Source: Crossiella cryophila
Lineage (GTDB): Bacteria; Actinomycetota; Actinomycetes; Mycobacteriales; Pseudonocardiaceae
NCBI RefSeq assembly: GCF_014204915.1
Contig: NZ_JACHMH010000001.1
Location: forward strand, 9,895,501-9,959,500
Length of the DNA stretch: 64,000 nt
Direction: 5' to 3'
Position 1 is the stretch's first letter. Each line of letters begins with the position of its first letter. The notes beneath the pieces were generated by a model. It was not told the origin of the DNA. It was given only the letters and a program-made list of their open reading frames with translations, and did not search any database. Below, one piece after another: positions 3,716-59,588 of this stretch. A program made the position numbers and the translations under genes.

Positions 3716-4189
3716 ATGACCGAGTCCCCCCGCCTCGCCCCCGGCGACCCCGCCCCCGAGTTCACCCTGCCCGACGCCGATGAGAAGCCCGTGTCACTGT
3801 CGGACTTCCGTGGACAGCACGTGATCGTCTACTTCTACCCGGCCGCCGGCACCCCCGGCTGCAGCAAGCAGTCCTGCGATTTCCGGGACAACCTGGCCGA
3901 ACTGAACGAGGCCGGCTACACCGTGCTCGGCATCTCCCCTGACAAGCCCGCGAAGCTGGCCAAGGTCAGGGACGAGCAGGAGCTGACCTTCCCGCTGCTG
4001 TCCGATCCGGACCGCTCGGTGCTGGCCGCCTGGGGCGCCTTCGGCGAGAAGATGATGTACGGCAAGACCGTCACGGGCGTGATCCGCTCGACCTTCGTGG
4101 TCGACCCGGACGGCAAGATCGCCACCGCCCAGTACAACGTGCGCGCCACCGGACACGTGGCCAAGCTCCGCAAGGATCTGCGCGTCTGA
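3716..4189 (+). CDS. bcp: Thiol peroxiredoxin, BCP family
   Basis: 157-residue thioredoxin-dependent peroxiredoxin that reduces hydroperoxides. The fold runs from APGDPAPEFTLPDADEK through a YFYPAAGTPGCSKQSCDF active site. The peroxidatic cysteine is C49 and the resolving C54 sits five residues on, the atypical 2-Cys arrangement of bacterioferritin co-migratory proteins. The start is the ATG giving the normal family length; an upstream in-frame extension is GC-rich and unlike the family. Confidence 0.93.
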   Translation: MTESPRLAPGDPAPEFTLPDADEKPVSLSDFRGQHVIVYFYPAAGTPGCSKQSCDFRDNLAELNEAGYTVLGISPDKPAKLAKVRDEQELTFPLLSDPDRSVLAAWGAFGEKMMYGKTVTGVIRSTFVVDPDGKIATAQYNVRATGHVAKLRKDLRV

Positions 4190-4290
4190 GCCAAAACTGA
4201 AGATCTTCCCCGCGGTGCAACCTGATCCACACGGCCTGGCCTACGCCGAACCCAGCTCGAAAGTTGCCTGAGCACTGAGCCAACTTCGTT

Positions 4291-5232
4291 GTGGGGCAAC
4301 GGCGTAGACCACTCGTGAGGAACTCCGTGGTGGCGATGGCCAGCGTGTTCGTGGTGTGCGCGGCCGGCCTGCTCTCCATCCACCTGCTCAGCGGACCCGG
4401 TCAGGCCGGTCCGCCGTCGCCGACCACCCAGGTCGAGGTGACCAGCGCCGGGCTGCCGCCCAGTGCCGCCGACGAGCCCGCGCCGACCTCCGTGGTCGCC
4501 CCGGACCCGGACAAACCCAAGGGCGACAAGCGACCCCCCGCCGACCTGGGCAGCGCGGTGGCCAGGGCGGTGCGGGCGGGCGGCAGTGCCTCCGGGGTCG
4601 GTGTGCTGGTGCTGGACACCGGCAACTGGCGGGAGCTGGCCGCCGCCGACGCGGACCGGCAGTTCCGGTCGGCCTCGCTGGTGAAGCTGCTGATCGCGAT
4701 CGACGCCATGCAGTCCGGGGTGTCCAGCAACTCCGAACTGCGCACCATGCTCGCGGCCAGCCACGACGGGATCGCCAACCAGCTCTGGGTGGAGACCGGC
4801 GGCAACGCCATGGTGCAGCGGCAGGCCAGGAAGATCGGGCTGAGCAGGACCGCGCCGCCGCTGGACCCGATGCACTGGGGCGACACCAAGGTCACCGCGC
4901 GGGACATGGGCAAGGTGTACCGGCACGTGCTCACCGAGCTGCCCAAAACCCAGCGGGAGGTGATCGTCGGCGCGCTGGCCGCGGCGCCGAAGCTGGCCGC
5001 GGACGGGTTCGACCAGCACTTCGGCATCCCCTACGGACTGCCCGAGGTGCAGTGGGCGATCAAGCAGGGCTGGGCGCAGGGCCGGGCCGGGGTCGACCTG
5101 CACACCAGCGGGCTGCTGGCCGAGCGGTCCAGGGTGGTGGTGCTGCTGAGCACGCACGCGCCGGGCACCGGGTACTCGCGCGCGGCCAAGTCGCTGACCG
5201 CGGGCGCGGCTGAGCTGGGTGGCCTGTTCTGA
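4291..5232 (+). CDS. Exported serine hydrolase, beta-lactamase-like fold
   Basis: 313-residue protein with an N-terminal membrane or signal segment (about residues 10-32), a Pro-rich linker to about residue 85, and a C-terminal domain resembling class A beta-lactamases. The clearest motif is FRSASLVKLLIAIDAM near residue 128, an SxxK active-site motif (SLVK) at the head of a helix. Other motifs such as SDN and KTG are not obvious, so it may be a catalytically altered penicillin-recognising relative rather than a resistance enzyme. Such proteins are common in actinomycetes as lipoproteins or secreted proteins. It starts at GTG. Confidence 0.75.
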   Translation: MGQRRRPLVRNSVVAMASVFVVCAAGLLSIHLLSGPGQAGPPSPTTQVEVTSAGLPPSAADEPAPTSVVAPDPDKPKGDKRPPADLGSAVARAVRAGGSASGVGVLVLDTGNWRELAAADADRQFRSASLVKLLIAIDAMQSGVSSNSELRTMLAASHDGIANQLWVETGGNAMVQRQARKIGLSRTAPPLDPMHWGDTKVTARDMGKVYRHVLTELPKTQREVIVGALAAAPKLAADGFDQHFGIPYGLPEVQWAIKQGWAQGRAGVDLHTSGLLAERSRVVVLLSTHAPGTGYSRAAKSLTAGAAELGGLF

Positions 5233-5370
5233 ATCGACCACTTTTCCGGTTCTGCTAGCCTTGAGGTATTCACAGGACCAACTGACAGGGTGATATACCG
5301 TGCGTGGCGCATTGACGCCGCCCGGCGTCGGCATCTTCGGCGGCTTCGACCAGAGGGTTGTCAGGGTTCA

Positions 5371-17481: not shown

Positions 17482-18141
17482 CTACCAGGTCGGCTTGCAG
17501 GCGGTGACGCCCACGTTGATCGTGCCGCCGATGTCGCCGTAGCCGTCCTGCGGGTCGAGCACGATCCGCATGGCGGTCAACGAGATCGCGCCCTGACCGT
17601 CGGTCTCGGACTTGTTCACGATGATCTTGGCCACCGGCGGCTTGGTGGAGTTCTTGCCCGGCACCATCACCACGTGCCCGGACGGCACCGGGTTGGGCAG
17701 GCTGAACCCGCTGTAGCCGCCGAGCTTGAACCCGGCCTGGGTGCCGTTCTCGGTGGACTTGCAGGTCGCCTCGAAGGTCTTCACCCGGATCAGCCGCCTG
17801 CCGTATTCGGTCGTGTTGAACAGGTTCAGCTCGAACTTGTTGCCCTTGACCAGGATGTTGGCGTCGCCGTTGGGTTCCTTGTTGCAGGCCGTGGTGCCCG
17901 CGCCGAAGCTCACGCCGGGGTAGGTCACGCCGGGCGTGGTGCCCGTGCTCTGCCCGTCCACATCACAGCCGATGATCGGCCCGGAGCTGGACGGGTTCGC
18001 GCCCTGCACGTTCACCGAGCCCAGCTCGGCGGTGCCCTGGTCGCCGAGATCAGCGGCATAGGCGGGCGAGAGGCCCGCGCTGAGTGCCATGGCGATGGCC
18101 GCGCCCACAACACCGATCCGGTACGCACTTCTCGCGTGCAT
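17482..18141 (-). CDS. Exported protein, unknown function
   Basis: 219-residue protein with a clear Sec signal peptide (about residues 1-30, ending SPAYAAD). The mature part is rich in Gly, Ser, Asn and beta-strand pattern, with GPIIGCDVDGQ, ACNKEPNGDANI and FEATCKSTENGT containing widely spaced cysteines that could form disulfides; it ends VGVTACKPTW. It resembles actinobacterial choice-of-anchor-type surface proteins, but I cannot name a family with confidence. The ATG at 18141 has AAAGGGG upstream. Its long upstream region carries a perfect inverted repeat. Confidence 0.75.
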   Translation of the reverse strand: MHARSAYRIGVVGAAIAMALSAGLSPAYAADLGDQGTAELGSVNVQGANPSSSGPIIGCDVDGQSTGTTPGVTYPGVSFGAGTTACNKEPNGDANILVKGNKFELNLFNTTEYGRRLIRVKTFEATCKSTENGTQAGFKLGGYSGFSLPNPVPSGHVVMVPGKNSTKPPVAKIIVNKSETDGQGAISLTAMRIVLDPQDGYGDIGGTINVGVTACKPTW

Positions 18142-18363: not shown

Positions 18364-18630
18364 TCACGCGCTCGCCTTGGTGACCGCGGTGGGCACCCGC
18401 AACCGACGGCAGCCCAGCACCACATATCCCCTGACCACCCGGGGCGTGGGCTCCACACAGCCGCTCAGCACGACCTGACAGCCCATCGGCGGGAACCCGG
18501 CCTCGCGGGCCAGCCACAGCGCGTGCTGCCGCGCCCTGGCCAGCGCCTCCCTGCGGTTCTCCCCGAACCCGTTGCCCACGAAGGCCGCCACCAGCGTGGT
18601 GGGTCGTCTTGATCTTCTCGTCAGGTGCAT
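18364..18630 (-). CDS. Small cysteine protein, family member without signal peptide (A)
   Basis: 88-residue protein with a helix-strand-strand pattern. It contains FVGNGFGENRREALARARQ, then AGFPPMGCQVVLSGC and GYVVLGCRR with three cysteines. There is no signal peptide. It is closely similar to the 19463 protein and more distantly to the four exported neighbours. The ATG follows GAGGGAGAG. Function unknown; it is the last gene of a six-gene run on this strand. Confidence 0.8.
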   Translation of the reverse strand: MHLTRRSRRPTTLVAAFVGNGFGENRREALARARQHALWLAREAGFPPMGCQVVLSGCVEPTPRVVRGYVVLGCRRLRVPTAVTKASA

Positions 18631-18728
18631 CGCGCTCTCCCTCAATCGCGTCCACCTCAGTTGATGCCCCTGGGCGGCGGCTCCGGCGCTGCGGACCGGA
18701 GCCACCGCCCAGGGAGTTCACCGCCGGC

Positions 18729-19058
18729 TCAGCGGGTGCAGCTGATCACCACGTTGGCGGTGAAGTAACCGGCCCCGTGCGGGTTGATCCGGCTGTAGGT
18801 GGTCACGCACTGGCTCTCCACGTAGCCCTGCAGCGCGGCGGAGTGCAGGGCGTAGTCCATCGCCTGCTTGAGCGCCTTCTTGCCCGAGCCGATGGCCGAG
18901 CCCGAACCGCTGAAGATCTGCGTCTCCAGCGTGCCGGCCTCGCTCGCGGCGACCGGGGCGGCGTTGAGGGCGGGTGCGGCCTGCGCCGCGACCGGGGCCA
19001 GCATCGCCAGACCGGCGAAGGTCGCGGCCAGCACACCTCGTCGAACCATGGAACCCAT
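18729..19058 (-). CDS. Small exported cysteine protein (tandem copy 2)
   Basis: 109-residue protein with a Sec signal peptide (VRRGVLAATFAGLAMLAPVAAQA). The mature domain is LETQIFSGSGS, a helix (KKALKQAMDYALHSAALQGY), SQCVTTYS and a final ANVVISCTR. The two cysteines bracket the last strands and probably form a disulfide. It is a near-identical tandem copy of 19107-19436, offset by 378 bases and including the ribosome site. Function unknown. Confidence 0.85.
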   Translation of the reverse strand: MGSMVRRGVLAATFAGLAMLAPVAAQAAPALNAAPVAASEAGTLETQIFSGSGSAIGSGKKALKQAMDYALHSAALQGYVESQCVTTYSRINPHGAGYFTANVVISCTR

Positions 19059-19106
19059 TGCTTGTCTCTCCCCTGTTCGTTCCGGACCGACGTAGTCGCG
19101 CCTACG

Positions 19107-19436
19107 TCAGCGGGTACAGCTGATGACCACGTTGGCGCTGAAGTAGCCCGCGCCGTGCGAGTGGGTCCGGCTGTAGGTGGTCACGCACTGGCTCTCCACG
19201 TAGCCCTGCAGCGCGGCGGCGTGCAGGGCGTAGTCCATCGCCTGCCGCAGGGCCCGCTTGGGCGAGCCGCCCGCGGAACCCGAACCGCTGAAGATCTGCG
19301 TCTCCAGCGCGCCGGCCTCGCTCGCGGCGACCGGAGCGGAGTGGGCGGCGGGTGCGGCCTGCGCCGCCACCGGGGCCAGCATCGCCAGACCGGCGAAGGT
19401 CGCGGCCAGCACACCCCGTCGAACCATGGAACCCAT
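19107..19436 (-). CDS. Small exported cysteine protein (tandem copy 1)
   Basis: 109-residue exported protein nearly identical to its neighbour at 18729: same signal peptide, same SGSGS, AMDYALHAAALQGYVESQC and ANVVISCTR. Differences cluster around residues 30-36 and 60-66, and in the loop SRTHSHGAGYF versus SRINPHGAGYF. The ATG at 19436 corresponds to the duplicate's start; the longer reading frame upstream overlaps the preceding gene and is unlikely. Function unknown. Confidence 0.85.
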   Translation of the reverse strand: MGSMVRRGVLAATFAGLAMLAPVAAQAAPAAHSAPVAASEAGALETQIFSGSGSAGGSPKRALRQAMDYALHAAALQGYVESQCVTTYSRTHSHGAGYFSANVVISCTR

Positions 19437-19462
19437 TGCTTGTCTCTTTTCTGGTTCTGGAC

Positions 19463-19720
19463 TCACGCACTCCTGCCCAGCTGGGCGAAGGAGTTCCTCG
19501 ACTGACGACAGCCGAGCACGACATATCCGGCGACCACCCGGTTCACGGGCTCCGCGCAACCGCTCAGCACGACCTCGCACCGCTCGGACGGGAAACCCGC
19601 GGTCCTGGCCTGGAACAACGCGTTCTGCCGCGCCCTGGCCAGCGCTTCACGGCGGTTCTCCCCGAACCCGTTCCCGATGAAGGCCGCGACCAGCGAAGGC
19701 CGTCCGCGACCGTTGTTCAT
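19463..19720 (-). CDS. Small cysteine protein, family member without signal peptide (B)
   Basis: 85-residue protein without a signal peptide. FIGNGFGENRREALARARQ, AGFPSERCEVVLSGC and GYVVLGCR are almost the same as in 18364-18630. Its ATG overlaps the stop of the exported gene 19717-20013 as ATGA, so an exported and a non-exported member are made from one coupled message. Function unknown; a cytosolic partner or antagonist of the exported protein is one possibility. Confidence 0.82.
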   Translation of the reverse strand: MNNGRGRPSLVAAFIGNGFGENRREALARARQNALFQARTAGFPSERCEVVLSGCAEPVNRVVAGYVVLGCRQSRNSFAQLGRSA

Positions 19721-20013
19721 CGCTGGCAGAAGACGTTCGCGGTGCCGAACCAGAGGCCGATGACGCTGCTCGGCCTGGTGCTGGAGCTGTGCAGGTAGCA
19801 CTGCGAACGCTGGAAACCGGCCGAGACCGCCTGGCTGAAGGCGAAGTTCGCCGCACTGGCGACGGCGCCGCCCGGGGTGGTGTTCTGCGCGGTCGCGGTG
19901 AACATGCGGGTCTCCCGCACCGACGTCGTCCCGGCGTCGGCGGCGAGTGCAGGCGCGGCGGCGCTCAGCACGGCGCCGGTGGCCAGCACGGCGGCACACA
20001 GCAACTTCTTCAT
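19717..20013 (-). CDS. Small exported cysteine protein (C)
   Basis: 98-residue protein with signal peptide MKKLLCAAVLATGAVLSAAA. The mature domain has TRMFTATAQN, a helix ending FSQAVSAGFQRSQC and a final TANVFCQR, the same layout as the other exported members. It has a GGGGGAAC ribosome site. It follows two strong hairpins in the 325-base gap behind 20339-20620. Function unknown. Confidence 0.82.
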   Translation of the reverse strand: MKKLLCAAVLATGAVLSAAAPALAADAGTTSVRETRMFTATAQNTTPGGAVASAANFAFSQAVSAGFQRSQCYLHSSSTRPSSVIGLWFGTANVFCQR

Positions 20014-20073
20014 GGTTGTTCCCCCTGCGTTTCTTCAAGACCGCCGACCCCACCGGCCGACGGAGAAAGGGCC

Positions 20074-20109
20074 GGGATGGCCTCCGGTGCACACACGGGA
20101 GGCCATCCC
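20074..20109 (-). terminator. Hairpin between small exported genes (second)
   Basis: GGGATGGCCTCC at 20074-20085 pairs perfectly with 20098-20109 (12 bp, 12-base loop). On the minus strand it is followed by GGCCCTTTC. It is a likely terminator or processing hairpin. Confidence 0.6.
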
Positions 20110-20214
20110 GCTGAACGCCTGGCCGGGGCGGCACCCGACCGACAGGTTTCGCTGGGGGGCGTGAACGCCACCGATCGACGGCGGCCAGCGCCGGGCCAGA
20201 CGTTCGTGAAAGGG

Positions 20215-20253
20215 CCGCCGGGGCGTCCGACTGGGGGGCGCACGCCCCGGCGG
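20215..20253 (-). terminator. Hairpin between small exported genes (first)
   Basis: CCGCCGGGGCGT at 20215-20226 pairs perfectly with ACGCCCCGGCGG at 20242-20253 (12 bp, 15-base loop). On the minus strand GGCCCTTTC follows, as at the second hairpin. It lies about 85 bases after the stop of 20339-20620. Confidence 0.6.
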
Positions 20254-20338
20254 CGGTGTCCTCACGGTTTCGACCAGGACCGGCATCCCCCCTGTGGTAG
20301 CCGGCCACGCGGGTCAACGCGTGAGGAGTCTGGTCAAC

Positions 20339-20620
20339 TCAGATGCATGCCACGACCGCGTGGCCCTCCCAGTACGGGGGCAGCAGCGGCTGCGCGCTGT
20401 ACTGGGTCAGGTGGCAGCGCGAGGCGGTGTAGCCGCCGGCCGCCGCCGCCCGGAAAGCGTTGTTCTGGGCCTTCTGGATGGCCTCCTCGCGCTGTTGCGC
20501 CAGGCTGCGACCCTCGAAGCTGGCCGCGAGCGCCGAGGTCCCACCGACCTCGGCGGCCTGTGCGGCCGGGGCGAACCCCAGCGCGGCAGCCACCACGAGC
20601 ACTCCTGCGAGCTTCCGCAT
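20339..20620 (-). CDS. Small exported cysteine protein (D)
   Basis: 93-residue protein with a signal peptide (MRKLAGVLVVAAALGFAPAAQA). The mature part is LAASFEGRS, helix EEAIQKAQNNAFRAAAAGGY, then TASRCHLTQYS and a final HAVVACI. This is the most diverged member of the six. It has a GGGGGAG ribosome site. It is the gene closest to, and divergent from, the EspR-like regulator, so it may be the most directly controlled. Function unknown. Confidence 0.8.
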   Translation of the reverse strand: MRKLAGVLVVAAALGFAPAAQAAEVGGTSALAASFEGRSLAQQREEAIQKAQNNAFRAAAAGGYTASRCHLTQYSAQPLLPPYWEGHAVVACI

Positions 20621-20801
20621 GTCTCCCCCTGCTCGTCAGCCTTGGTCGACTGACTTCCCCTTGGTCATTCATCTCAGCTAACGTTGCCTGGACACAAGTT
20701 AGACCCGCATGACACGGGCTGTCAACTGACGTGGATGAGTTCCCTCCAACTCGTTCACTTCAGTTGATGCCCGCCGGACTTCCACACCCACAGAGGCGCA
20801 G
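20621..20801. promoter_or_regulatory. Divergent promoter region with nested palindromes
   Basis: TCAACTGA (20722-20729) is mirrored by TCAGTTGA (20760-20767). Inside this pair, GAGTT and AACTC flank CCCTCC near 20736-20751. A further CTAAC/GTTAG pair lies near 20678-20702. These are candidate operators between the small exported gene (minus) and the EspR-like regulator (plus), possibly for autoregulation. Confidence 0.5.
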
Positions 20802-21248
20802 ATGACCGACGAGCAGGACCGCCAGCCAGAAGCCGGCACGCTCGCCGAACGGATCGACCACCTTTTCCAGGTGATCCGTCGCCCCAACGGCGAGCAGCAC
20901 AGCCATGAAGAGGTAGCGAAGGCCTGCCGGGACAGCACCGGTGAGACCTTCTCCGCGACCTACCTCTGGCAACTGCGCACCGGCCGCAGGGACAACCCGA
21001 CCAAGCGGCACCTGGAGGCCCTGGCCGGTTTCTTCCAGGTGCCACCGGCTTATTTCTTCGACGACGAACAGGGGGCCGCGATCGCCAAAGAGCTGGAGAT
21101 ACTCGGTGCGCTACGCAACAGCGCGGTGCGCGATGTGGCACTGCGCGCGGTGAACCTCTCCGAGGAGGGCCTTGGCACGATCACCGACATCATCGATGCT
21201 ATTGCACGCAGGGAGGCGCAACGGGGCGAAAGCGAGGGTGCTCGCTGA
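20802..21248 (+). CDS. EspR-like XRE-family DNA-binding regulator
   Basis: 148-residue protein: an N-terminal helix-turn-helix (about residues 12-85: AERIDHLFQVIRRPNGEQHSHEEV, then TYLWQLRTGRRDNPTKRHLEAL) and FFQVPPAYFFDDE before a C-terminal helical dimerisation region. This resembles mycobacterial EspR, a nucleoid-associated regulator of secretion genes, in length and in the YLxQLRxGxRxNP and FFxxxxxYFxDDE motifs. It is the first gene of a likely operon with the ImmA-like protease and the membrane protein. Confidence 0.85.
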   Translation: MTDEQDRQPEAGTLAERIDHLFQVIRRPNGEQHSHEEVAKACRDSTGETFSATYLWQLRTGRRDNPTKRHLEALAGFFQVPPAYFFDDEQGAAIAKELEILGALRNSAVRDVALRAVNLSEEGLGTITDIIDAIARREAQRGESEGAR

Positions 21249-21264
21249 CGCCAAGGGGAGAGAC

Positions 21265-21768
21265 GTGCGGTACTCGCGAAACGCGCTGTGGCGGCGCTGC
21301 GCTCAGCTGGTGTCCACTGTGGACATTCCAGAGCCATTCGACGTGCCGCTGCTGGTCGAGTCGCTGGCGGCCAAACGGGGTCGGCCGATCGAGCTGATCC
21401 CGTTGGCCGCCAGGCCGAACACGCCGTGCGGGGTGCTGGCCGCCACCGACCGGGCGGACTACGTCTTCTACTCCGTGGACACCTCGCCACTGCACCAGGA
21501 GCACATCCTGTTGCACGAGCTGGGCCATTTGCTCTGCGGCCACGCGGGTGACGGCGAACTGCACGAGACGGTGGCCCAGCTGCTGATGCCGAACCTGCCG
21601 GTGGAGCTGGTGCGCCGGGTGCTGGGCCGGACGGGCTACGCGCAGGAGCAGGAGCAGGAGGCCGAACTGGTGGCCTCGCTGATCATGCACCGGGCCCGGC
21701 GGGCGCGACCGGCGCCGGTCAGCGGCGAACTGGAACGGCTGCGTTCGGCGTTCGGACCGGGGGTCTGA
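21265..21768 (+). CDS. ImmA/IrrE-type metalloprotease
   Basis: 167-residue protein with HEXXH zinc motif LLHELGHLLCGH near the middle and a downstream Glu-rich helix (EQEQEAELVASLIM) likely to supply the third ligand. ImmA/IrrE proteases cleave XRE-type repressors to relieve repression, so the neighbouring EspR-like protein is the natural candidate substrate (inference). The GTG start at 21265 has GGGGAGA upstream. A GTCCACTGTGGAC palindrome lies within the gene at 21312. Confidence 0.87.
   Translation: MRYSRNALWRRCAQLVSTVDIPEPFDVPLLVESLAAKRGRPIELIPLAARPNTPCGVLAATDRADYVFYSVDTSPLHQEHILLHELGHLLCGHAGDGELHETVAQLLMPNLPVELVRRVLGRTGYAQEQEQEAELVASLIMHRARRARPAPVSGELERLRSAFGPGV
21312..21324. repeat. 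GTCCACTGTGGAC palindrome, copy 2
   Basis: A perfect copy inside the ImmA-like coding sequence, encoding the VSTVDI segment. Confidence 0.8.
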
Positions 21769-21769
21769 G

Positions 21770-22948
21770 GTGATCAGTTACATCAGTGCCGGACTGCTGG
21801 TGCTGATCAGCGTGGGCAAGTTGCTGGCCAGCAGGGGCGGACCGCCCAGCCCCGGCATGCGCTACCTGATCGGCTTCTTCCTGAGCCTGGCCGCCGGCCT
21901 GGTCATCGCGGCCGATCCGACCACCCCGCTGATCATGGCGATCGAGCCGTTCCCGCTGACCGGACGGCTGGTGTCCAACGCCTGCCAGATGCTGGCGGTG
22001 CACTTCCTGGTCCGGCTGGCCCGCTCCACCCAGACCCCGGAGCCGCGGACCAGGTTGTGGCCGCTGCTGCTGTGCTGGCTGGCGATGACCGGGCTGATGC
22101 TGCACCTGACCCAGAAGCTGCCGGAGTACATCGCCAACGGCGGCACGGACCTGGCCTTCTACCCGAGCGTGGCCGGCTATCAGGCGGTGCTGGTCGGGTA
22201 CGGGGTGACCTGCCTGGTGATGTTCACCAGGGTGATCATCAAGCACGCCCGGCAGTGCCCGCCCGGCACCTTCCGCACCGGTCTGCGGATGATCGGGCTG
22301 GCCGGGGTGACCACGGTGGTGTGGGGGCTGGCGGCCGGACTGCCCTCGGTGTGGCTGGTGCTCTTCCGCACCGAACTGGGTTTGTTCATGCCGCTGGCCC
22401 GCGCGCTCGGGCTGGTGGTGGCGCTGCTGTGGGTGGTGGGCGCGGTGCTGACCACCTGGCAGGGCGTGCTGGAGCGGCCGCGCCGGTGGCTGGCGGCCTA
22501 TCGCGGCTACCGGGCGGTGACGCCGCTGTGGTCGGTGCTGGTGCGCGCGCTGCCGGGGATCGTGCTGGCCTCGCCGCCGGGCTGGCCGGTGCGGATCGAG
22601 TTCGCGCTGTACCGGCGGCTGATCGAGATCAGGGACGCCTTCCTGACCCTGCGCGCGCAGGTGCCGCCGGAGGTGCCGGACTGGGTGCGCGCGGCGGCCC
22701 GGCGGCACGGGGTGGCCGCGGTGCCCGCGGTGCTGGCCGCGGCCGAACTGGCCGCGGCGCTGGCCGTGCGGGAGACCGGCCAGCGCTGGCCGCAACCGGC
22801 GGTGGACACGGCCGCGTCGACGGCCAGCATCGAGGCCGAGACGGCCTGGCTGACCGAGGTCTCGGCCGCCTTCGCCGACTCGCCGGTTGTAGCCGAGGTC
22901 AGGGCCCGCGCCGGAGCGACCTACGTCACAACGGCCGAAGCCGCCTGA
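21770..22948 (+). CDS. Seven-helix membrane protein with DUF6545-like tail (MAB_1171c type)
   Basis: 392-residue protein: seven hydrophobic helices over residues 1-235, then a cytosolic helical domain (YRRLIEIRDAFLTLR near residue 285, ending with an Ala-rich region). This architecture is annotated in actinobacteria as MAB_1171c family putative transporter with a DUF6545 tail; transport has not been shown as far as I know. Its GTG start is one base after the ImmA-like stop, so it is co-translated. It could be the membrane sensor that signals to the protease-regulator pair. Confidence 0.82.
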   Translation: MISYISAGLLVLISVGKLLASRGGPPSPGMRYLIGFFLSLAAGLVIAADPTTPLIMAIEPFPLTGRLVSNACQMLAVHFLVRLARSTQTPEPRTRLWPLLLCWLAMTGLMLHLTQKLPEYIANGGTDLAFYPSVAGYQAVLVGYGVTCLVMFTRVIIKHARQCPPGTFRTGLRMIGLAGVTTVVWGLAAGLPSVWLVLFRTELGLFMPLARALGLVVALLWVVGAVLTTWQGVLERPRRWLAAYRGYRAVTPLWSVLVRALPGIVLASPPGWPVRIEFALYRRLIEIRDAFLTLRAQVPPEVPDWVRAAARRHGVAAVPAVLAAAELAAALAVRETGQRWPQPAVDTAASTASIEAETAWLTEVSAAFADSPVVAEVRARAGATYVTTAEAA

Positions 22949-56606: not shown

Positions 56607-59588
56607 GTGTCCGCTGTGCCCGACGCCACCCGCCACACCCGCCCCGAGGTCCTCCTGGACCCGAGCTGGTGGGCGCCCGCCCTCGCCCTGCACGAGCGGG
56701 CCGAGCACGGCGTGCCGGCGGGCCCCGGCAACCGGCCGCGGCACTGGGACCAGGACGGACTCGATGCCGCGTTCACCCTCCGGCTGGCCGAACTGAACCT
56801 CACCATGGACGCGGCCCAGGCACTGCGCACCGAGCCCGCCGCCGAACTGGCCGCGCGGATCCGCAAGCCGGACTGGGCGGCGACCGCCGAGACCGCGGTG
56901 CGGATCTCGGCCACCCTCACCGGCTCCTCGGCCGAGGGCCTGGACTGGCGGGACGCGCTGGCCCGGCCGCTGCGGCCGTTCGTGCTCGACGCCGCGGACC
57001 AGGTGGCCGCCGGCGCCGCCACGCTGTCCACCAGCGCCCTGGACCTGACCGGGATCGCGGACAGCTTCAGCCGCACGCTGTCCCGCCGCCTGCTCGCCAT
57101 CGCGGCCCGCACCCTGGTCGGCGAGCTGCACCGCCGCCGCACCGCCGGGCGGCTGCACGGCGCGGACGGCCGGGCCCGGTTCACCGATTTCGCCCACCAG
57201 CTCACCGACGCCACCGGCCTGGCCGAGCTGATCACCGACTACCCGGTGCTGGCCCGGCTGCTCGCCCAGACCAGTACGAACGCCGCCGAGGCCACCGTGG
57301 AGCTGCTCGCCCGGCTCAGCGCCGACCACGCCGAGCTGGTCGCCACCCTCTTCCAGGGCACCGACCCCGGTCCGCTGGTGGAGATCGAGGCGGGCAAGGG
57401 CGATCCGCACCGCGGCGGGCGCTCGGCCACCCTGCTGCGCTTCGCCGACCGGCGGCAACTGGTCTACAAGCCGAGGGACCTGGGCGCGCACCTGCTGCTC
57501 GGCCGCCTGCTGGACTGGACCGAGAGCCACCTGCCCGGCCTTGGCCTGCGTGCCGTGCCCACCATCGCCAAGGACGGCTACGGCTGGTCCGCCTACCTGC
57601 CCGGCGCGCCGGTGCACAGCCAGGCCGAGGCGGCCGAGTTCTACCGCAGGCAGGGCGCGCTGCTGGCCCTGTTGCACGCGGTGCAGGCCACCGACATCCA
57701 CTGCGAGAACCTGATCGCCGACGGCGGCACCCCGGTGCTGGTCGACCTGGAGACGCTGTTCCACCCCGACCTCACCGGCGCGCCCGGCACCGGCGACCCG
57801 GCCGCGGACGCGCTCACCGCCTCGGTGCACCGGACCGCGTTGCTGCCGCTGATCGTGGTCGGCGAACAGGGCGCGCTGGACATGTCCGGGCTCGGCGGCG
57901 ACGGCGGCCGCACCGCCCCTGGCAGCGTGGTGGACTGGGCCGAACCGGGCACCGACTCGATGCGCCTGATCCGGGCCGCCAAGACCTTCGACGGCGCCCG
58001 CAACCGGCCGGTGCTGGACGGTCGCGCGATCGACCCCGGCGAGCACGAGACCGCGCTGCTGGAGGGGTTCCGGCTGGTCTACGACGTGATCAGCGCGCAC
58101 GGGGACGAGCTGGCCGCGCTGGCGGAGTCCGCGGCCGACCTGCCGCTGCGCGTGGTCACCCGCCCCACCTGGACCTACTCCACCCTGCTGGACGAGACCA
58201 CCCATCCCGGCGTGCTGCGCGACGCCCTGGACCGGGACCGGGCGCTGTCCGTGCTGTGGTCCGGCCGGTCGCACCCGGTGCTGGCCCAGCTGCTGCCGCA
58301 CGAGCTGACCGACCTGTGGGCCGGGGACGTGCCGCTGTTCACCAGCGCCCCCGGCGGCGGCGAGATCCGCACCGCGGCGGGCAAACCGCTCGGCGTGCCG
58401 CTGGGCCGGACCGGACTGGCCGCCGCGCTGGCCGCGATCGACCGCTTCGGCGAGGTGGACCGGCAGGACCAGGAGTGGATCATCTCCGCCGCGCTGGCCA
58501 CCCGGCAGCCCGCCGGTGATCACCAGGACGCGACCCCGCTGCCCGGCCCGCGCACCGGCAGCGCCGCCGAACCGGACCGGCTGCTCGCCGCCGCCTCCGC
58601 GGTGGCCGACCAGATCGTGGCCCGCGGCATCCCCGGCGGCGACCGGGTCAACTGGCTCGGCCTGGAACTCGTGGACGACCGGCAGTGGCTGATGCTGCCC
58701 ATGGGCGCCGGCCTGGCCACCGGGCACATCGGGGTGGCGCTGTTCCTGGCCCAGCTCGCCGAGGCCACCGGCGTGACCCGCTACGCCGACACCGCCCGCC
58801 GCGCCCTGCGCGGGGTGCCCGGACTGCTCGCCGCGCTGGAGCGCTCGCCCCGGCTGCGGGACGCGGTCGGCTGCGGCGGCACCCAGGGCCTCGGCGGCAT
58901 CGCCTACGGCCTGGCCCGGCTCTCCGTGCTGCTGGCCGAGGACACCCTGCGCGCCGGCGCGGAGACCGCGGTCGGACTGGCCGGGGCCGCCGCCACCGCG
59001 GGCGCCGACCCGAGCTGGGCGACCGGCACCGCGGGCTGCCTGACCGCGATGCGCGCCGTGCACACGATCACCGGACTGCCCGCCGCGCGGGCCCTGGCCG
59101 AGGGCTGCGCCGCGCACCTGGCGCACTGCCTGGACCAGGACCTGGCGCTGCCCGGCGGGTTCGCCAACGGTTTCGCCGGACTGGCCTGGGCACTCGCCCA
59201 GGACGGCCGGCGTCCTGACCTCGCGGCCGAGGCCACGCGCCGGTCCTCGGCCGCGGGGCCCGGCTGGTGCGCGGGCGCCGCCGGGCTCGCACTGGCCACC
59301 GGCGACCTCGGCGACCTCGCCGACCACCCCGTCCTGCGCGATCTCAGCCTCTGCCACGGCGAGCTGGGCGTGCAGGAGACCTTGACCGTGCTGGACGGCC
59401 CCCAGGCCGCCCGCCGACGCCGCGCCGGACAGCTGCTCGACGCCCTGCACCGGCTCGGTCCCACCTGCGGCGCACCAGCCGGTGTGCCCACCCCCGGCCT
59501 GTTCAACGGGCTCGCCGGGATCGGCTACGGCCTGCTCCGCCTCGCCTGCCCCGAACAGGTCCCATCGGTCCTGTTGCTCCAAAGCTGA
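56607..59588 (+). CDS. lanM: Class II lanthipeptide synthetase LanM
   Basis: 993-residue bifunctional enzyme that phosphorylates and dehydrates Ser/Thr and then cyclises them with Cys. The N-terminal dehydratase has LVYKPRDLGAHLLLG (K288), TDIHCENLIADGG and VLVDLETLFHP. The C-terminal LanC-like cyclase (from about residue 640) has MGAGLATGHIGVALFLA and the zinc ligands C888 (GWCAGAAG), C916 and H917 (CHGELG), so both activities look intact. GTG start with GGGGT upstream. The precursor gene lies 42 bases downstream. Confidence 0.96.
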   Translation: MSAVPDATRHTRPEVLLDPSWWAPALALHERAEHGVPAGPGNRPRHWDQDGLDAAFTLRLAELNLTMDAAQALRTEPAAELAARIRKPDWAATAETAVRISATLTGSSAEGLDWRDALARPLRPFVLDAADQVAAGAATLSTSALDLTGIADSFSRTLSRRLLAIAARTLVGELHRRRTAGRLHGADGRARFTDFAHQLTDATGLAELITDYPVLARLLAQTSTNAAEATVELLARLSADHAELVATLFQGTDPGPLVEIEAGKGDPHRGGRSATLLRFADRRQLVYKPRDLGAHLLLGRLLDWTESHLPGLGLRAVPTIAKDGYGWSAYLPGAPVHSQAEAAEFYRRQGALLALLHAVQATDIHCENLIADGGTPVLVDLETLFHPDLTGAPGTGDPAADALTASVHRTALLPLIVVGEQGALDMSGLGGDGGRTAPGSVVDWAEPGTDSMRLIRAAKTFDGARNRPVLDGRAIDPGEHETALLEGFRLVYDVISAHGDELAALAESAADLPLRVVTRPTWTYSTLLDETTHPGVLRDALDRDRALSVLWSGRSHPVLAQLLPHELTDLWAGDVPLFTSAPGGGEIRTAAGKPLGVPLGRTGLAAALAAIDRFGEVDRQDQEWIISAALATRQPAGDHQDATPLPGPRTGSAAEPDRLLAAASAVADQIVARGIPGGDRVNWLGLELVDDRQWLMLPMGAGLATGHIGVALFLAQLAEATGVTRYADTARRALRGVPGLLAALERSPRLRDAVGCGGTQGLGGIAYGLARLSVLLAEDTLRAGAETAVGLAGAAATAGADPSWATGTAGCLTAMRAVHTITGLPAARALAEGCAAHLAHCLDQDLALPGGFANGFAGLAWALAQDGRRPDLAAEATRRSSAAGPGWCAGAAGLALATGDLGDLADHPVLRDLSLCHGELGVQETLTVLDGPQAARRRRAGQLLDALHRLGPTCGAPAGVPTPGLFNGLAGIGYGLLRLACPEQVPSVLLLQS

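Follow-up and report, generated by a model that had tools for sequence, protein, structure and literature searches.

A candidate EspR- and ImmA-like switch divergent to a family of small, mostly secreted two-cysteine proteins in Crossiella cryophila

Organization of the locus

Within the 10.06-Mb single-contig genome of Crossiella cryophila, a window of 64,000 nucleotides (the whole stretch of DNA analyzed, to whose numbering coordinates refer unless another locus is named) contains six small genes divergent to a three-gene cassette. The small genes follow one another on the minus strand in the order p6-p5-p4-p3-p2-p1, from 20620 down to 18364, and the cassette genes R, I and M lie on the plus strand. 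An earlier note on this DNA had read the locus as a secreted-protein system with signal-dependent derepression. Here it is judged reasonably probable that R-I-M is a portable regulatory switch and that the six small genes are its output. The genes are as follows.

18364..18630, minus strand: p1, small two-Cys family member, 88 amino acids (aa), without signal peptide; AlphaFold2 (AF2) model with predicted local distance difference test (pLDDT) score 84.2, beta-alpha-beta-beta
18729..19058, minus strand: p2, small secreted family member, 109 aa; AF2 pLDDT 93.5, beta-alpha-beta-beta
19107..19436, minus strand: p3, small secreted family member that nearly duplicates p2 (300 nucleotides (nt), 90% identical)
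19463..19720, minus strand: p4, family member without signal peptide, p1 paralogue (200 nt, 79% identical to p1)
19717..20013, minus strand: p5, small secreted family member, 98 aa
20339..20620, minus strand: p6, small secreted family member, 93 aa, leading the divergent cluster
20802..21248, plus strand: R, EspR-family DNA-binding protein, 148 aa; matches PDB 3qf3, E 5.3e-20, over residues 12-138
21265..21768, plus strand: I, M78/ImmA-IrrE-like metallopeptidase with HELGH, 167 aa; GTG start set by comparison with L037
21770..22948, plus strand: M, MAB_1171c-family (DUF6545) membrane protein, 392 aa, by profile match

The cassette is compact, with 16 bases between R and I and a single base between I and M; in the small-gene cluster, the start of p4 overlaps the stop of p5. 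The homology of R to EspR covers the helix-turn-helix and the C-terminal dimerization domain, which bears out the EspR-like assignment of the earlier note. Although I scores 0.2 bits below the Pfam M78 cut-off, HExxH is found in 126 of the 128 I proteins, a set in which some loci, taken from different sources, occur twice; both exceptions are one collapsed cassette seen twice, and a Glu-rich E.E[AV]E motif lies downstream of it in 122 of the 128. M matches NF042915 over its length (residues 6-368) with 176.7 bits against a cut-off of 100. Since profiles built here find three more R-I-M sets in the same genome (L125, L126 and L128) and R relatives occur in 75 of 150 related genomes, the triad itself appears common and its pairing with the small family special.

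The small-protein family

By sequence, the six minus-strand genes encode one protein family, and chance similarity is rejected. One Phe and two Cys are invariant throughout the family, and both members that were modeled, p1 and p2, are predicted to adopt the same beta-alpha-beta-beta fold. Signal peptides, which appear to be of the Sec type and were assigned by a crude rule or by eye, are predicted for four of the six proteins (p2, p3, p5 and p6) and for neither p1 nor p4. The shared pattern that the earlier note had seen in all six proteins is in this way confirmed.

Searches for relatives were negative. No small protein matched a Pfam or NCBIfam family above cut-off, PADLOC gave no match among the five that were scanned (p3 was left out), Foldseek with the small-protein models returned no significant match, and the family profile met PDB sequences only at E >= 0.009, in designed repeats and other proteins. 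Dodecin appears in the fold lists, and it could be asked whether the small proteins are flavin-binding or storage proteins of the dodecin type. The likeness is confined to those lists, where RcsF, DUF74, FlgT and SIMPL-like chains score similarly and none is significant, and a dodecin sequence profile matched neither six proteins of the window (E up to 1) nor 30 family members (E up to 0.1). Moreover, the small family differs from the dodecin, RcsF and DUF74 folds in its two invariant Cys and in the signal peptides of most members. A dodecin identity is set aside as highly improbable.

Candidate operators and promoters

The region shared by R and the small genes carries half-sites of the form TCAACTGANGTGNA. 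Two copies of a 23-base site lie before p1 and before p6 (chance expectation 0.00), and a third half-site faces the copy before p6. Allowing up to one mismatch, the genome has four copies of TCAACTGANGTGNANGNG, of which this locus contributes three. The candidate sites are listed below.

20754..20767, minus strand: operator half-site TCAACTGAAGTGAA, paired in inverted orientation with 20722-20735 at a start-to-start distance of 32 bp
20722..20735, plus strand: operator half-site TCAACTGACGTGGA; it overlaps the -35 of the promoter inferred for the small genes
20696..20725, minus strand: inferred small-gene promoter (TTGACA, 18 bp, TAACTT), its TTGACA overlapping the middle half-site
20668..20681, minus strand: operator half-site TTAGCTGAGATGAA, spanning about +8 to +21 of the transcript inferred for the small genes
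20334..20347, plus strand: weak half-site TCAACTCAGATGCA (two mismatches), located at the stop of p6 and shared with the sister genome L037
18651..18664, minus strand: half-site TCAACTGAGGTGGA before p1, inside a stretch of 32 nt that nearly copies the main operator (84%)

The TCAACTGANGTGNA motif was derived from this window and then scored upstream of R genes at <=3 mismatches, where it was found in 48 of 56 cases as compared with 41 of 567 control genes. When one R is taken per 80%-identity cluster, the counts are 27/37 for R genes, 55/533 for controls and 9/37 for the reversed motif. A minus-plus-minus arrangement of half-sites, in some cases with a second plus, recurs upstream of 25 of 32 small-family R genes (23 distinct); by cluster, the plain minus-plus-minus form occurs in just 6/37. 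The small-gene strand was also scanned for TTGACA (<=1 mismatch) with a -10-like hexamer 16-19 bases further on. Such a promoter-like pair stands at the operator for 22 of 23 distinct small-family R genes, whose upstream sequences are related, for 40 of 101 other R genes and for 40 of 1472 controls. The corresponding counts by cluster are 2/2 for the small family and 20/35 for the others.

Sites also occur in trans. Genome-wide, TYAGCTGAGATGAATGA (<=3 mismatches) has six matches, two exact and four with three mismatches. The exact sites, the sole ones with fewer than three mismatches, lie at the R/p6 promoter and at a promoter at 6.738 Mb, 3.18 Mb from the R-I-M locus and with a similar site layout. 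The latter precedes a three-gene operon whose products all have a signal peptide by eye: a 95-aa member of the small family, a ricin-B lectin (Pfam E 2.6e-20) and a 103-aa protein that ends in a similar Ala-rich two-Cys stretch and that the profile does not match. A regulon of these two promoters is well supported as a prediction. Among five other genomes searched with TYAGCTGAGATGAATGA at <=2 mismatches, 11 of the 12 matches are placed either at the cassette or ahead of small secreted genes, with site positions matched by hand and one of the five genomes without any match. In G283 (five sites) and G292 (four), every site falls at the cassette or upstream of unlinked small secreted genes, with one site in each preceding an 81-aa protein outside the family profile.

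Unlinked family loci with a gene call bear sites in 5 of 17 cases (L100, L101, L106, L107 and L115) and lack them in the other 12; other genes in these loci have sites in 8 of 169. The five site-bearing loci are all in G000, G283 and G292, genomes with a small-family cassette. Of the four loci without a gene call, all but L124 were scanned; L108 and L122 show no site and L111 shows one weak, distant site. In the fetched loci, genes were called with a simple script, which set at least one leader gene wrongly, that of L115 (G283). There, an unlinked family gene pair (4618-5236) has operator-like half-sites upstream of the re-checked gene start. Control by R of the entire small family is ruled out by three operator-less members in cassette-bearing genomes. 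Taken with the conserved operators at the locus, the sites in trans favor, at the level of DNA sequence, the claim of the earlier note that the cassette controls small genes.

The placement of the sites bears on the sign of regulation. Because they lie at about -35 and at +8 to +21 of the inferred start, repression is suggested. It could be proposed instead that R activates the small genes, as EspR does at espACD, and that I removes R to switch secretion off. EspR acts both ways (PMC3315491; statements drawn from this and the other cited papers refer to excerpts of them), and one half-site upstream of the -35 with one overlapping it would suit an activator as well. A half-site at about +8 to +21 is typical of repression, paired sites around the promoter recur at the trans operons, and the COG2856/XRE pairs that have been studied inactivate repressors (PMC7907104), so that activation is considered unlikely, though it is the rival to be taken most seriously.

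A near-perfect 19-nt inverted repeat at 18668-18714, between p2 and p1, is perhaps a terminator without a T run; a terminator scan called none.

Distribution and inheritance

Strong family matches were obtained at 27 loci, of which 22 are divergent to R, using family profiles that lean to cassette-linked members and 15 scored candidates per genome. Of the other five, two retain I-M or a remnant of M and three carry the operator. This agrees with the association proposed in the earlier note. The two outcomes that would have refuted it, unrelated folds or homologs that are never near the cassette, were not encountered. The small family as a whole is present in ten genera, and the pairing with the cassette covers part of it; a broader branch of small secreted proteins (L108-L123), in the same bacterial family, lies away from any R match.

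In a tree of R plus I, the cassettes with small genes form one clade with support 100/98, and none of 500 shuffles was as low. Streptosporangium holds both cassette and small genes, and its cassette groups with that of Crossiella. The small genes might be ordinary neighbors retained by common descent, as the three Crossiella loci compared would allow, each pair sharing eight flanking genes. Besides Crossiella, flanking genes are common to only two pairs among the 14 units compared, and with so few cases the cassettes appear to occupy about ten neighborhoods. That number, the presence of both parts in Streptosporangium, and the shared operators and trans sites contradict mere common descent, which is given very little credence. 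The small-gene cassettes thus trace to a single origin, and their horizontal transfer is likely; the earlier note had seen neither of these, nor the operators or the second operon.

A further alternative holds that R and I form a toxin-antitoxin or self-regulating pair with the small genes as passengers under a shared promoter. Such XRE/metallopeptidase pairs are often called toxin-antitoxin systems (PMC10538038), and 69 of 80 named R loci are without small genes. Operators before unlinked small-protein operons in three genomes, together with joint inheritance through about ten neighborhoods, speak against passengers, and the alternative is held to be improbable.

The more general rule that R-I-M faces a secreted gene was rejected, with five signal calls among 24 divergent neighbors outside the small family. 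Of 77 named loci with a neighbor call, 34 have a divergent neighbor, which by a crude rule has a signal in 15 cases (10 of them small-family members), and 43 have a same-strand neighbor, four with a signal, against a background of 72/489. L152, counted among the 43, actually faces small genes and was miscalled.

Ratios of nonsynonymous to synonymous substitution rates (dN/dS) were below 1 in all of the 17 comparisons, among 18, that gave a value; p2 versus L037 yielded no ratio. In the comparison with L039, values range from 0.68 to 0.82 for M and the secreted genes and from 0.16 to 0.26 for R, I and p4, a contrast that is suggestive only of fast evolution in M and the secreted genes and slow evolution in R, I and p4. 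As L039 also carries two M genes, M may set what is sensed.

Several features near this and other cassettes can be recorded separately. A 219-aa secreted protein (17482-18141, minus strand) without a match in Pfam or NCBIfam is encoded on the far side of p1 in all five mapped Crossiella loci. It is also kept in Crossiella sp. SN42 (L047, L196), where a deletion has collapsed the cassette and small genes to a fused R-I reading frame and a p1 remnant. Farther along the window, a gene for the type 2 lanthipeptide synthetase LanM (56607-59588, plus strand; NCBIfam TIGR03897, E 3.4e-185) is followed by a gene for a 963-aa protein with a LuxR-type C terminus. In many Amycolatopsis genomes (L164, L169, L171-L176, L178-L182, L184-L187, L189-L193, L195, L198 and L210), R-I-M follows on the same strand a gene that we take to be mutM, itself preceded in three maps by a gene that is presumably rnc. 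Other R-I-M cassettes stand divergent to I36 peptidase inhibitors (L052 7706-8119; L056 7553-7960) or to a conserved 71-74 aa peptide with a Gly/Ala-rich C-terminal half (L194, L197, L201, L203 and L208, in Micromonospora, Paractinoplanes and Microtetraspora), one of which, when tested, had no Pfam match over cut-off. Beside the own-genome set L126, an LPMO_10 enzyme is encoded on the same strand (3746-4375).

A proposed model of the switch

In the proposed model, R would bind TCAACTGANGTGNA half-sites situated across the -35 of the small-gene promoter and immediately past that promoter, and would most likely repress the small genes, its own operon and the 6.738-Mb operon. M may detect something at the envelope and then activate the zinc peptidase I, directly or indirectly; an envelope signal is suggested because this membrane protein is conserved and co-encoded. 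I would cleave or otherwise inactivate R, relief by proteolysis being suggested by the M78-like neighbor, as in IrrE/DdrO and CapP/CapH. Once R is lost, the small two-Cys proteins, of which four in six are exported, and the lectin could be produced in a burst until newly made R shuts expression off. Cleavage of R by I, sensing by M and derepression are plausible. The predicted regulon lends support to one part of the system proposed in the earlier note; its analogy to virulence, discussed below, is not supported.

A number of observations weigh against this model. I is absent from the matches of the Pfam M78 model across the genome, M has no known sensory domain, activation is among the actions of EspR itself (PMC3315491), and at least one COG2856 protein, that of Rir/Crh, inactivates its repressor without cleavage (PMC7907104). 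The half-site before p1 leaves 20 nt to the start codon, which is no space for a promoter; TAACTT is a poor -10, and a stricter consensus scan calls no promoter. Ten of the 37 R cluster representatives have no half-site, and because the small-family R genes make up two 80% clusters, the shared promoter layout counts few independent cases. Finally, three of the 12 site-less unlinked family loci sit in cassette-bearing genomes.

For the switch model, a two-promoter regulon, a shared operator and a conserved membrane partner make the triggering of such switches directly testable, and a small secreted family found in ten genera is placed under a likely regulator.

Possible roles of the small proteins

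Most members are exported, genes have been duplicated and diverge fast, and a lectin belongs to the predicted regulon; a surface or extracellular role is suggested. Action at or beyond the cell surface, for example in antagonism, inhibition or adhesion, would fit. The signal-less p1 and p4 could protect the producer; since both members of the Amycolatopsis small-gene pairs that were inspected have a signal peptide by eye, protection in the style of p1 and p4 does not appear general. In a more speculative version, a mobile, membrane-gated EspR-ImmA switch would deploy a fast-diversifying arsenal of secreted two-Cys proteins and a lectin against neighbors or predators, with p1 and p4 giving cytoplasmic protection to the producer. 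This version is doubtful, and if true would, as far as literature searches go, be the first protease-relieved EspR-type system and define a new class of secreted bacterial effector.

Comparison with known systems

Among known systems, R is close to EspR (Rv3849) of Mycobacterium tuberculosis, to which it aligns over residues 12-138. At its own promoter, EspR occupies inverted half-sites set some distance apart; it forms loops between spaced sites and is thought to regulate that promoter in this way (PMC3315491). The half-sites before R are likewise spaced and inverted. The EspR consensus is TTTGC[TC][GA] (PMC3315491), whereas the enriched motif here is TCAACTGANGTGNA, predicted as the R site from sequence enrichment, and no TTTGC was seen by eye upstream of R. 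EspR has hundreds of sites as compared with two predicted loci for R, and only here are a protease and a membrane protein co-encoded. EspR activates espACD and acts both positively and negatively (PMC3315491). The earlier note had drawn an analogy to the control of virulence factors by EspR. This is not sustained in Crossiella, where the signals are Sec-type by eye, the motif differs and no ESX link was seen, although no search aimed at ESX genes was made.

M belongs to a family (MAB_1171c, NF042915, DUF6545) called a putative transporter, and here it is co-encoded with R and I. An MAB_1171c mutant showed reduced biofilm and underwent drug-sensitivity tests, and the excerpted text mentions no partner genes (PMC8707978). 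Literature searches on DUF6545, MAB_1171c, EspR-like, ImmA and IrrE found no account of an R-I-M cassette.

Among the derepression pairs of COG2856 and XRE proteins is ImmA/ImmR. In others, IrrE cleaves DdrO (PMC7907104) and CapP cleaves CapH (PMC10904395), and the pairs studied are described as inactivating repressors (PMC7907104). R is a weak CapH match in PADLOC (E 7.6e-5) and I gives no match; no other PADLOC model matched among the eight proteins scanned (p3 was left out), and the locus does not show the CapP match and adjacent genes of a cyclic-oligonucleotide-based antiphage signaling system (CBASS) that would mark a CapP/CapH pair. As in the COG2856/XRE pairs, an XRE regulator adjoins an M78-like peptidase with HExxH and a Glu-rich motif downstream of it. 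R-I differs in its conserved third gene, M, and in its predicted output, which is secreted small proteins rather than DNA repair, phage or CBASS genes. R-I-M is best classed as a probable variant of the XRE/COG2856 derepression pairs, with an undescribed secreted family as its predicted output.

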